A stretch of DNA of 39,373 bases from an uncultured Thiogranum sp. (GTDB taxonomy: Bacteria; Pseudomonadota; Gammaproteobacteria; DSM-19610), in contig CAJXFW010000006.1 in assembly GCA_913053655.1 (NCBI GenBank), positions 1 to 39,373 of the forward strand. The letters run 5' to 3'. Both the position numbers and the translations under genes were made by a program. Of the stretch, positions 30,494 to 34,906 are shown piece by piece. Each line of letters starts with the position of its first letter. Positions within the stretch are counted from its first letter, which is position 1. Under the pieces are notes generated by a model that searched no databases, had not been told where the DNA came from, and saw only the letters and a program-made list of their open reading frames with translations.

Positions 30494-31225
30494 CTAGTTC
30501 GCCAGGTCACCCCATAACGTTTGCAGTGCGCTTATAGCCGCAAGTGCCGCTGTTTCCGTGCGTAACACCCTTGGGCCCAGCCGCACGCGCTGAAAACCCG
30601 CAGATACTGCGAATTCAGTTTCGTCAGCGTCCAGACCTCCCTCCGGTCCTATCAGGATATGAATCCGGTTCGCCGGCGCCAGCGCACCCAGATTGATATC
30701 AGCCCCTGGATCAAGCACCAGCTGGAGTGGCGCCTGCGTTTCCGTACACCAGTCAGATAACGGGCAGGCATTTCCCAGTTCGGGCAGGACGGAGCGGCCT
30801 GATTGCTCACACGCAGATCGTATAACTCCCTGCCAGTGTGCCATACGTTTCTCCAGCCGTTTTCCGTGCAGGTGGACCTGTGACCGATTGGTCCAGACTG
30901 GTGTTATGGTATTGACACCGAGCTCGACTGATTTTTGCAGTACAAAGTCCATGCGCTCACCACGAGAGATTCCCTGTCCCAGGGTAATATCCAGGCTCGA
31001 TTCTCTGGACGTTTGTTCAGCGCGCTGAATGGCTGCGTTTACCAGAGTTTCCCCGACCGTATCCAGAATGGCGTGATAATCGCAGCCGTCGCCGTTGAAC
31101 AGAATAAGCGGGGCGCCGTTCTTCAGGCGCAATACGCGGTAAAGGTAGTGACTTGTTTCTTCGTCCAGTTCGACAGTTTTCCTGTCAGCGAGTTGTTGTC
31201 CGGTATAAAAGCGCGAAATGCGCAT
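30494..31225 (-). CDS. rsmE: 16S rRNA (uracil1498-N3)-methyltransferase RsmE
   Basis: A 243-residue SPOUT methyltransferase. The N-terminal PUA-like part (MRISRFYTG, YLYRVLRLKNGAPLILFNGDG) leads to the knotted domain with the signature LIGPEGGLDADE and LRLGPRVLRTETAALAA-type loop (RLGPRVLRTETAA). It uses SAM and so belongs with the methyl-cycle genes on this strand: metF lies 25 bases upstream. Normal length. Confidence 0.96.
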   Translation of the reverse strand: MRISRFYTGQQLADRKTVELDEETSHYLYRVLRLKNGAPLILFNGDGCDYHAILDTVGETLVNAAIQRAEQTSRESSLDITLGQGISRGERMDFVLQKSVELGVNTITPVWTNRSQVHLHGKRLEKRMAHWQGVIRSACEQSGRSVLPELGNACPLSDWCTETQAPLQLVLDPGADINLGALAPANRIHILIGPEGGLDADETEFAVSAGFQRVRLGPRVLRTETAALAAISALQTLWGDLAN

Positions 31226-31250: not shown

Positions 31251-32099
31251 TCATAGCCCCAGCTTGTTCCAGATGGCTGTGGTTGGACCGGCCTGGTTCA
31301 TGGTATAGAAATGCAGGCCGGGTGCCCCGGCATCCAGCAGTGCCTGACACATTTGCGTGATAATTTCTTCACCGAAGGCCCGGATGGATGCCTTGTCATC
31401 GCCATAGGTCTCCAGCCGCTTGCGGATCCAGCGCGGGATTTCAGCACCGCACATGTCGGAAAACCGTGCCAGCTGGGTATAGTTTGTGATCGGCATGATG
31501 CCGGGCACTATGGGCAGGTCAATAGCACGCTTTTCACACAGATCAACAAAATTGTAGTAGGCATAGGGATTATAGAAATACTGCGTGATAGCGCTGTCGG
31601 CACCGGCCTCGATCTTGCGTTTGAAATTATCCAGATCAGCGTCGGCGTTGCTCGCCTGGGGGTGGAATTCAGGGTAGGCGGCGACTTCAATATGGAAGTG
31701 ATCACCGGTTTCGGCACGAATGAATTCCACCAGTTCGCTGGCATAGCGGAATTCCCCCGGTTGCCCCATGCCTGATGGCAGGTCACCGCGCAAAGCTACT
31801 ATGTGGTGAATACTGTGCTGTTTGTACAGGTTCAGAATGTCACGAATACTGTCTTTTGTGGAACCCACGCAGGACAGGTGTGGTGACGCCTCAATGCCCG
31901 AGTCACTCTGAATTTCACAAACCGTTTCGAAAGTGCGCTCCCGGGTAGAGCCTCCGGCGCCAAAAGTGACCGAAAAGAAACGCGGCTTGAGTTTCGCCAG
32001 CTCGTCGCGGGTGTTGCGAAGTTTGGCCACACCCTGTTCTGTTTTAGGCGGGAAAAACTCAAAGCTGTAAACGCGTGGGTGTTCTTTTTGTGATTCCAT
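31251..32099 (-). CDS. metF: 5,10-methylenetetrahydrofolate reductase
   Basis: A 282-residue FAD-dependent TIM-barrel enzyme that makes 5-methyltetrahydrofolate for methionine synthesis. Motifs: YSFEFFPPKTEQGVAKL at the start, VTFGAGGSTRERT, HIVALRGDLP and AITQYFYNPYAY. Length is as in E. coli MetF. It lies 50 bases after ahcY, and that gap contains only a REP half-site. With metK and ahcY it completes part of the activated methyl cycle. Confidence 0.97.
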   Translation of the reverse strand: MESQKEHPRVYSFEFFPPKTEQGVAKLRNTRDELAKLKPRFFSVTFGAGGSTRERTFETVCEIQSDSGIEASPHLSCVGSTKDSIRDILNLYKQHSIHHIVALRGDLPSGMGQPGEFRYASELVEFIRAETGDHFHIEVAAYPEFHPQASNADADLDNFKRKIEAGADSAITQYFYNPYAYYNFVDLCEKRAIDLPIVPGIMPITNYTQLARFSDMCGAEIPRWIRKRLETYGDDKASIRAFGEEIITQMCQALLDAGAPGLHFYTMNQAGPTTAIWNKLGL

Positions 32100-32149: not shown

Positions 32150-33568
32150 TCAGTAACGATAATGATTCGGTTTGTATGGGCCTTCCGTCGGAATGCCAAG
32201 ATACGCTGCCTGTTCCGGCGTCAATTCAGTTAGTTGTGCGCCGATCTTCTGCAAGTGCAGGCGTGCAACTTTTTCGTCCAGCTGTTTCGGCAGCACGAAG
32301 ACTTCATTTTTGTAGCTCTCGCCGTTGCTGAACAGCTCCATCTGTGCCATCACCTGGTTGGTGAAGGACGCCGACATCACAAAGCTCGGGTGACCGGTCG
32401 CACAGCCCAGGTTAACCAGACGACCCTTGGCCAGAATGATGATCTTCTTGCCGTCCGGGAAGATCACATGATCCACCTGTGGTTTGATTTCTTCCCACTG
32501 GTATTTTTCCAGCGAGGCGATATCGATTTCCGAATCGAAATGGCCGATGTTGCAGACAATAGCTTCGTTCTTCATTGCCGCCATGTGGTCATGGGTAATT
32601 ACACTCATGTTGCCAGTAGTGGTGACAAAGATATCACCGACACTGGCAGCTTCGTCCATGGTGACCACGCGATAACCTTCCATTGCTGCCTGCAAAGCAC
32701 AGATCGGATCGATTTCGGTGACCAGCACGGAGGCACCCATGCCACGATAGGCCTGGGCGCAACCTTTGCCTACGTCGCCGTAGCCCAGTACCACGCAGAT
32801 CTTGCCGGCAATCATCACATCGGTGGCGCGTTTGATGCCGTCAAGCAGCGATTCGCGACAACCGTACAGGTTGTCAAACTTGGACTTGGTAACCGAGTCG
32901 TTAACGTTCATGGCAGGGAACAACAGGTCACCGGCTTCCTGCATCTGGTACAGGCGGTGTACACCGGTAGTGGTTTCTTCGGTGACGCCCTTGATGCTGT
33001 CGGCCATTTTCTGCCACATACCCGGATTGTTTTCCAGGTTGCTACGCAGCACGTTGAGAATGGCTTTCCATTCTTCGTTATCGTCGTCCTTTGTAGCCGG
33101 CACGGCGCCGGCCTTTTCGAACTCGACACCCTTGTGGATCAGCAGGGTGGCGTCGCCGCCGTCGTCGAGAATCATGTTGGGCATCTGCCCGTCCGGCCAG
33201 GCCAGGGCCTGCTCGGTGCACCACCAGTATTCCTCAATGGACTCGCCCTTCCAGGCGAACACCGGCACTCCCGTCACGGCGATCGCGGCTGCAGCCTGAT
33301 CCTGGGTGGAGTAAATGTTGCACGAGGCCCAGCGTACGTCGGCACCCAGATCAACCAGCGTTTCAATCAGCACGGCGGTCTGGATAGTCATGTGCAGACT
33401 GCCGGTGATGCGCGCGCCCTTGAGCGGCTTCTGCGCACCAAATTCCTCGCGCAGTGCCATCAGGCCGGGCATTTCGATTTCCGCAATACTGATTTCCTTG
33501 CGGCCCCAGTCGGCCAGCGAAATATCGGCGACTTTGTATTCGTTACTGGAGTTGAGAACAGCGTTCAT
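32150..33568 (-). CDS. ahcY: S-adenosylhomocysteine hydrolase
   Basis: A 472-residue NAD+-dependent enzyme that splits SAH into adenosine and homocysteine. Seen: substrate-domain [29 protein letters not shown], the Rossmann motif [24 protein letters not shown] and the C-terminal KPNHYRY that closes the neighbouring active site. It has the ~40-residue insertion in the catalytic domain (around [20 protein letters not shown]) found in proteobacterial long forms. AAGGGAG precedes the ATG by 7 bases. A SAH riboswitch and strong promoter lie upstream. Confidence 0.98.
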
Positions 33569-33578
33569 AGTGCATCTC

Positions 33579-33597
33579 CCTTAAAGGTCACTTAAGG
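33579..33597 (-). promoter_or_regulatory. Hairpin covering part of the ahcY ribosome site
   Basis: CCTTAA (33597-33592) can pair with TTAAGG (33584-33579), whose last bases are part of the AAGGGAG ribosome site. It directly follows the 3' strand of the riboswitch pseudoknot, so it may be the expression platform that ligand binding opens. Inference from pairing only. Confidence 0.4.
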
Positions 33598-33598
33598 T

Positions 33599-33670
33599 CG
33601 AGCGCAGTTGTTTTGAGATGCTGGTTTCTCCGAGCCTGGCGGGCATCGCCCGCTGCAGCGCCCCTCAGGG
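33599..33670 (-). promoter_or_regulatory. SAH riboswitch of ahcY
   Basis: The element has the SAH riboswitch layout: P1 CTGAG (33668-33664) with CTCGG (33634-33630), conserved GGGCGCTGCA, P2 GCGGGC (33653-33648) with GCCCGC (33644-33639), the conserved CCAGGCTCGG, then the pseudoknot strand GCGCTC (33605-33600) pairing with GGGCGC (33663-33658). It binds S-adenosylhomocysteine and raises ahcY expression in known cases (Rfam SAH_riboswitch). Position directly before ahcY agrees. Confidence 0.94.
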
Positions 33671-33695
33671 AACACAGCTGAATTTAAGGCCTGCG

Positions 33696-33723
33696 ATTAT
33701 AGGGTAGCGGGGACAGATTTCAA
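33696..33723 (-). promoter_or_regulatory. Sigma-70 promoter of ahcY
   Basis: TTGAAA (33723-33718), a 16-bp spacer and a perfect TATAAT (33701-33696). Transcription would start about 33689, just before the riboswitch. The -35 box is the exact centre of a perfect palindrome, so a palindrome-binding protein would control it. Confidence 0.75.
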
Positions 33724-33733
33724 ATCTGTCCCC
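33709..33733. repeat. Perfect 25-bp palindrome GGGGACAGATTT-C-AAATCTGTCCCC
   Basis: Twelve-base perfect arms around one base, 7 bases after the metK stop. Such GGGACAGATTT palindromes occur as dispersed repeats in several gammaproteobacteria (recalled), so it is probably a REP-like unit. It could also stall transcripts leaving metK, though no T-run follows. It supplies the ahcY -35 box. Confidence 0.65.
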
Positions 33734-33739
33734 TGTGTC

Positions 33740-34906
33740 CTAGGCCCCGGCATCCGCCCGCAGGGCTTCGGCCTTGTCGGTATGCTCCCAGGTGAAGCCT
33801 TCGTCCTCACGGCCAAAGTGACCGTAGGCTGCCGTTTTCCGGTACTTGATCTTGTCGGTGTTGAGCAGATCGAGCATGGTGAGAATACCATACGGGCGCA
33901 GGTCAAAATGTTCGCGCACCAGCCCGGTAATGCGTTCATCGCTGATCTTGCCGGTACCGAAAGTCTCGACCATGATCGAGGTCGGATCCGCCACGCCGAT
34001 GGCGTAAGAGATCTGGATCTCGCAGCGTTCCGCCAGCCCGGCGGCAACGATGTTCTTGGCAACGTAACGTCCGGCGTAGGCTGCGGAGCGATCCACTTTG
34101 GACGGATCTTTGCCGGAGAAGGCACCCCCACCGTGACGTGCGGCGCCGCCGTAAGTGTCGACAATGATCTTGCGTCCGGTCAGCCCGGCGTCACCCATCG
34201 GGCCACCGATCACAAAGGCACCGGTGGGATTGATGTGATATTGCGTATCAGCCGTCAGCCATTCACTCGGCAGCACCGGCTTGATGACGTTTTCCATGAT
34301 CGCCTCTTCCAGTTCCTTGTGGTTGATGTCCGGCGCGTGCTGGGTGGACAGCACCACGGCATCGATCGCCACCGGTTTGTTGTCCTGGTAGCGGAAAGTG
34401 ACCTGGCTCTTGGCATCCGGCCGCAGCCAGGCGAGTACACCCGTGCTGCGCATCTCGGACTGGCGGTGTACCAGCCGGTGTGCGTAGGTGATCGGCGCGG
34501 GCATCAGCACGTCGGTTTCGTTGGTGGCGTAGCCAAACATCAGGCCCTGATCGCCGGCGCCCTGATCCTCGGGTCTGGCGCGATCCACACCCTGATTTAT
34601 ATCAGGTGACTGTATGCCAATAGCCGTCATGACCGCGCAGGTTTCGTAGTCAAAGCCCATTTCGGAACTGGTGTAACCGATACCCTTGATAGTATCGCGC
34701 ATGACCTGTTCGTAATCGGGTTTGGCCGTGGTGGTGATTTCGCCGGCGATCATGACCATACCGGTCTTGAACAGGGTTTCGCAGGCCACGCGGGCGTGCG
34801 GGTCTTCGATCAGGATGGCGTCGAGTATGGCATCTGACACCTGGTCAGACATCTTGTCCGGGTGGCCTTCAGACACTGACTCTGATGTAAAAAGATGTCC
34901 ACTCAT
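33740..34906 (-). CDS. metK: S-adenosylmethionine synthetase
   Basis: A 388-residue enzyme making SAM from methionine and ATP. Motifs: [13 protein letters not shown] (H15, K18), the [12 protein letters not shown] hexapeptide region and [19 protein letters not shown]. Start: ATG at 34906, with AGGAGT 8 bases before it; the seven codons upstream overlap the leader. The gene has its own strong promoter and a leader of about 127 bases with an intrinsic terminator. It opens the metK-ahcY-metF-rsmE series; ahcY has a separate promoter. Confidence 0.98.

Follow-up and report, generated by a model that had tools for sequence, protein, structure and literature searches.

The locus

The DNA analysed here is a stretch of 39,373 nt, called the window throughout, from an uncultured Thiogranum sp. 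(assembly GCA_913053655.1, contig CAJXFW010000006.1). Along its minus strand, the end of metK (stop at 33740) is followed by a riboswitch and then by ahcY, metF and rsmE, with the following coordinates:

33696..33723, minus strand: promoter-like site TTGAAA-16-TATAAT, matching at 11/12 positions, between metK and the riboswitch
33593..33672, minus strand: SAH riboswitch aptamer (RF01057 match), present in the own genome and in 16/17 genus genomes
32150..33568, minus strand: ahcY, adenosylhomocysteinase (TIGR00936, 647.6 bits)
31251..32099, minus strand: metF, methylenetetrahydrofolate reductase, downstream of ahcY
30494..31225, minus strand: rsmE

A 25-base palindrome, GGGGACAGATTTGAAATCTGTCCCC (33709-33733), provides TTGAAA, the −35 box of this promoter-like site before ahcY. 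Together with TATAAT, the palindrome occurs as a single copy in four of the 17 genus genomes, the own genome included, always just upstream of the riboswitch; in leader L005 a degenerate copy lies at the same place, and L006 has a copy in which both arms are changed together. With up to three mismatches allowed, the palindrome is found at seven further places in the own genome. A role as an operator of a methionine regulon was considered and dropped, because the other copies inspected (five in the own genome, two in genome G009 and one in G015) adjoin genes that, by eye, are unrelated. The element looks like a dispersed repeat, which we take to be REP-like, that was recruited as part of a promoter.

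The aptamer and its match to RF01057

The initial annotation of this leader had listed the core parts of an SAH riboswitch from the letters alone, and had named a comparison with RF01057 as one way to check them. That covariance model matches the minus strand from 33672 to 33593 at 58.3 bits (E 2.3e-08), with a gathering cut-off of 37 bits, and is covered from end to end (positions 1-78 of 78). The match, which ends 24 bases before the ahcY start, is far beyond chance; it is the sole match above threshold in an Rfam scan of the window and the one RF01057 match reported from the own genome. Identity as an SAH riboswitch is thus supported by the full-length match together with ahcY lying directly downstream, and P1, P2 and the pseudoknot GGGCGC (33663-33658) / GCGCUC (33605-33600) are all in place:

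33664..33671, minus strand: 5' arm of P1, UCCCUGAG, with C33669 opposite A33629 as a mismatch
33658..33663, minus strand: 5' strand of the pseudoknot, GGGCGC, in which G33662 faces U33601 as a G-U pair
33639..33653, minus strand: P2 hairpin, GCGGGC / GCCCGC
33627..33634, minus strand: 3' arm of P1, CUCGGAGA
33606, minus strand: U33606, a position that is G in 111/121 parsed leaders; predicted to form a U-A pair with A33571 in the OFF stem
33600..33605, minus strand: 3' strand of the pseudoknot, GCGCUC, which would also provide the 5' arm of the OFF stem

Spread among relatives

The riboswitch is present in 16 of the 17 genomes of the genus and in 19 of the 20 of the family, the own genome being counted in both, and a search of the order returned the same 20 genomes. 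The single genus genome with no RF01057 match, G008, is 82% complete, and therefore the absence may be a gap. At the level of the class, 154 of the 369 sampled genomes have the riboswitch. Six named records carry the leader motif of the window, three from Thiohalobacter sp. and three from unclassified gammaproteobacterial MAGs, and none of the plasmid records matched the leader.

For comparisons, 127 leader loci were assembled (L001-L019 and L026-L133, two from some genomes), L020-L025 being omitted as duplicate records of genomes already included; the leaders from the class were 112 of the 150 matches listed. All but six (L090, L105, L115, L122, L127 and L130) could be parsed, giving 121 leaders. 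In 14 of these the pseudoknot lies over 45 bases from the start; the other 107 are termed short.

Across the 19 aligned family leaders, P1, P2 and the pseudoknot are paired in 97.4% of cells, a value reached by 0/500 shuffles, with kinship ignored. The covariation score of the aptamer (0.182, against 0.114 shuffled) was likewise reached by 0/500 shuffles, again with kinship ignored, and cells with a change on both sides were more numerous than in any of the 500. Two of the five aptamer measures were not above the shuffles in these 19 leaders, namely pairs with change on both sides (236/500) and further pair types (373/500). The changes on both sides are located in P1 and P2, with none in the pseudoknot, all six positions of which are paired in every family leader.

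The G-U pair that had been pointed out in the pseudoknot is real and is common to all 16 genus leaders. A tally of this second pseudoknot pair over the 121 parsed leaders gave A-U in 88, G-U in 28, G-C in four and A-C in one, and the G-U pair is therefore regarded as a tolerated variant.

Other features of the window copy are less ordinary. One might suppose that it is a weakened or drifting copy whose aptamer binds SAH poorly, as its P1 carries the C-A mismatch, a U replaces the G before GCGCUC, and no other of the 16 genus copies scores as low (58.3 bits, the others ranging from 58.4 to 71.1). Such decay is quite improbable, since the score is still 21 bits over the cut-off, the G at the position of U33606 is missing in 10/121 leaders (C in eight, and U in one other, L074, besides the window), and the same P1 pair is open in four of the 19 family leaders, the window included. 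The own genome is a draft of 268 contigs at 85.2% completeness, and so sequence error is possible for these peculiarities.

A predicted OFF hairpin over the ribosome-binding site

Downstream of the pseudoknot, the leader can form a long hairpin that begins inside the aptamer and ends past the likely Shine-Dalgarno (SD) core:

33571..33606, minus strand: predicted OFF hairpin, UGCG(c)UC / GAUGCA, a tandem G-A mismatch, then CCUUAAG / UUUAAGG with loop UGACC; −12.3 kcal/mol
33579..33597, minus strand: upper hairpin, containing CCTTAA/TTAAGG; −5.3 kcal/mol without the pseudoknot strand
33576..33579, minus strand: likely SD core GGAG, within AAGGGAG

In the predicted lower stem, U33606 pairs with A33571, G33605 with C33572, C33604 with G33573 and G33603 with U33574, C33602 is bulged, and U33601 pairs with A33575 and C33600 with G33576, so that GAUGCA takes in the last G of GGAG. 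Above the tandem G-A mismatch (33599-33598 against 33578-33577), CCUUAAG (33597-33591) pairs with UUUAAGG (33585-33579) around the five-base loop. Since the lower stem uses as its 5' arm the pseudoknot 3' strand extended by a single base, the pseudoknot and the OFF hairpin would be mutually exclusive. As the predicted energy weakens from −12.3 kcal/mol with the pseudoknot strand to −5.3 without it, the upper hairpin should still be foldable with ligand bound, and the lower stem would be the part that switches.

When the 122-base leader is folded for minimum energy, with pseudoknots ignored, the OFF stem appears as well and P1 is rearranged. That fold is unexceptional in stability (z −1.71, with 14/200 shuffles as stable), and the long stem alone is borderline: of 300 shuffled spacers 5% were as stable, and of 2000 it was 8%. 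Ranked in the same way against shuffles, the stem energies of the 107 short leaders gave values of 0.05 or less in 16 and a median of 0.45.

The initial annotation had taken the CCTTAA/TTAAGG hairpin to be the expression platform. The hairpin is indeed there (33597-33592 / 33584-33579) and reaches into the 5' part of AAGGGAG, but of GGAG it takes in the first G alone and, at 6 bp, forms the top of the longer predicted stem. It is kept in eight of the 16 genus leaders, with loops that differ in sequence and length, which would speak for it as a platform in its own right, opened directly by the pseudoknot; the other eight have different sequences there, and yet the pseudoknot strand can pair through its last three bases within or beside the SD core in 99 of the 107 short leaders. 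The hairpin does not overlap the pseudoknot, beginning two bases past it, and folds without its strand, so it does not follow that the pseudoknot would melt it. Control by this hairpin alone is accordingly considered unlikely. What can be retained of the earlier proposal is that the pseudoknot would expose the ribosome site, as predicted by way of the lower stem UGCGcUC/GAUGCA, which the initial annotation had not mentioned, and not by melting of CCTTAA/TTAAGG.

A different anti-SD pairing is offered by the linker between P1 and the pseudoknot, where GCAUCUC (33621-33615) can form seven perfect pairs with GAGAUGC (33578-33572) in the window. This pairing is broken, by eye, in leaders of the same type (GAGAAGC in L002, GAGAGGC in L003) and was rejected on that ground; nothing like it is visible by eye in the other leader types, and it is absent from the minimum-energy fold. 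As an account of the platform it is hardly credible.

Platforms in related leaders

Window-type leaders number eight. Their OFF segment has predicted energies of −11.5 to −15.5 kcal/mol, which weaken to −5.2 to −6.1 once the pseudoknot strand is removed. Seven of the eight form one supported branch (98/97) of an ahcY tree, L013 being unplaced, and conservation of the window-type platform is thus largely a matter of descent. In a covariation test within this lineage, 11 of the 13 OFF-stem pairs were invariant and 266/500 shuffles scored as high; since the stem hardly varies there, covariation is uninformative.

The 19 family leaders show three further types of platform. Seven leaders, termed type B, pair CUCAUCUU with GGAGAUGA, drawing on the final two bases of the pseudoknot; the energies are −6.5 to −7.2 kcal/mol if the pseudoknot strand is included and −2.2 to −3.2 if it is left out. 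L017 and L018 pair CACCU with AGGUG, drawing on the final base. The remaining two, L004 and L009, have CUCGCCUUC before GGGAG, and their minimum-energy folds contain no stem between the pseudoknot strand and the SD.

The complementarity recurs beyond the family. In the 99 distinct short leaders, the half on the pseudoknot side pairs with the SD-side half of its own leader at a mean of −7.55 kcal/mol, compared with −5.77 when the partners are permuted (0/2000) and −6.09 for composition-matched shuffles (0/300), kinship being ignored in both. With the family removed, the 84 distinct leaders that remain gave −7.05, against −5.58 permuted (0/2000) and −6.05 shuffled (0/300), with the same disregard of kinship.

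The cost of opening the SD core GGAG was modelled on the leader tail only, with the pseudoknot 3' strand either free or withdrawn. For the window, it was 8.5 kcal/mol with the strand free and 6.1 with it withdrawn; the means over the 107 short leaders were 4.3 and 3.2 (Wilcoxon p 2.5e-7, kinship ignored). Withdrawal lowered the cost by more than 0.5 kcal/mol in 54/107 leaders and changed it in the wrong direction by more than 0.5 kcal/mol in 15/107, L009, L017 and L018 among them. Compared leader by leader with shuffled spacers, switching had a median rank of 0.49, with 15/107 at 0.05 or less; these unremarkable ranks suggest that much of the effect is the built-in complementarity of GCGCUC and GGAG, not the tuning of spacers. 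The tail-only model replaced a partition-function model of the whole leader, in which the pseudoknot strands were masked and the SD was chosen automatically. Over the 107 leaders the latter gave mixed signs, with changes beyond 0.5 kcal/mol upwards in 45 and downwards in 23 (overall p 0.004), and for the window it gave the opposite sign, 3.1 free against 4.1 masked. It was set aside because it was noisy and because the site chosen for the window type, UAAGG, lies 13 bases from the AUG, which is implausibly far.

Proposed mode of control

Taken with its gene context, the leader very probably contains a genuine SAH riboswitch that raises translation of ahcY, and probably also of metF, through the OFF hairpin when SAH accumulates. 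In the ligand-free state, the 3' strand of the pseudoknot (33606-33600) would pair with 33576-33571, and this lower stem, stacked on the CCUUAAG/UUUAAGG hairpin, would lock GGAG in a long stem. Binding of SAH would stabilise the pseudoknot, which would reclaim its 3' strand and dissolve the lower stem. This would free the stretch ahead of the AUG as well as the 3' part of the SD, giving a two-state translational ON switch in which melting of the upper hairpin may, to some extent, be left to the ribosome. Overall, this is a commonplace and well-conserved SAH riboswitch, set before the gene that clears this waste product, and its platform probably switches translation ON.

Translational control had been suggested from the start, and it is favoured, with SAH as the ON signal, by the predicted SD pairing and by the finding of no terminator-like site in 33540-33800, which includes the stretch between aptamer and gene. 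Control of transcription instead, by a terminator or by access of Rho, might be argued from the 14/121 parsed leaders with 59-119 bases between pseudoknot and start, and from the separate stem far from the SD that the pseudoknot strand can occupy in some of these (e.g., L103). For the window, where no such terminator-like site was seen and only 31 bases separate the pseudoknot from the AUG, it is very improbable.

In addition to the preferred translational switch, a further reading concerns the lineage of the window. U33606 would weaken the end of the pseudoknot, where on a reading of the alignment a U, and not a G, would face a U, and would at the same time supply the new U-A pair of the OFF stem. 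That aptamer and platform have here been fused, the pseudoknot strand serving as the OFF arm, and that U33606 tunes the switch to respond to higher SAH only, is a tentative and rather doubtful extension.

Relation to known riboswitches

Competition of the pseudoknot strand with the SD has reportedly been proposed already for the SAH riboswitch class. The class was reportedly discovered by Wang et al. in 2008, and the structure 3NPQ is said to be that of Edwards et al. from 2010.

The SAH riboswitch regulon in gamma- and beta-proteobacteria is given as ahcY-metF in an excerpt of PMC4239095, and that of PMC7057144 describes ahcY as upregulated by the riboswitch, with an affinity of 32 nM and one 1000-fold lower for SAM; the crystal form of 3NPQ is treated in an excerpt of PMC7357161. 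The element in the window shares with the RF01057 class P1, P2, the pseudoknot, the conserved core and the ahcY-metF context, and differs in the G-U pair of the pseudoknot, the U for G before GCGCUC, the C-A in P1 and the lineage-specific long predicted OFF hairpin with its tandem G-A mismatches. A ligand-stabilised pseudoknot that gates the ribosome site is also found in the SAM/SAH riboswitch (RF01727), SAM-II, SAM-V and preQ1. In those, as translational riboswitches of this kind are portrayed in an excerpt of PMC10907184, the ribosome site lies in or beside the pseudoknot and is blocked by the ligand, whereas in the window the pseudoknot strand is the anti-SD and the ligand is predicted to switch expression ON. 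Excerpts of PMC7266159, PMC3764141, PMC2864571 and PMC5780412 offered nothing of use on this platform.

The analysis yields a collection of recorded SAH riboswitch leaders, drawn from gammaproteobacteria resembling Thiohalobacter and from elsewhere in the class. It also yields a specific model of the platform that can be put to the test, with the anti-SD sequence supplied by the pseudoknot strand. The practical value is modest and lies in annotating ahcY regulation and in designing compensatory mutants.

Leaders of other kinds

Between 77 and 119 bases separate the pseudoknot from the ahcY start in L036, L055, L065, L070, L073, L092, L093, L095, L103 and L131. In several of them (L036, L070 and L103), a strong stem far ahead of the SD takes up the 3' strand of the pseudoknot, which suggests that these long-spacer leaders may use a different platform.

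Lastly, RF01057 matches were found directly upstream of metK at L088 (G093, 59.7 bits), L106 (G322, 58 bits) and L122 (G021, 55 bits). The metK calls there comprise the first 69-93 residues only, with TIGR01034 scores of 100-138 bits that are under the full-length cut-off. Since metK is stated in the excerpt of PMC4239095 not to be under SAH riboswitch control, the regulon may be wider than that part of the survey conveys. In G093, ahcY too is preceded by an SAH riboswitch, the second in that genome (L074).
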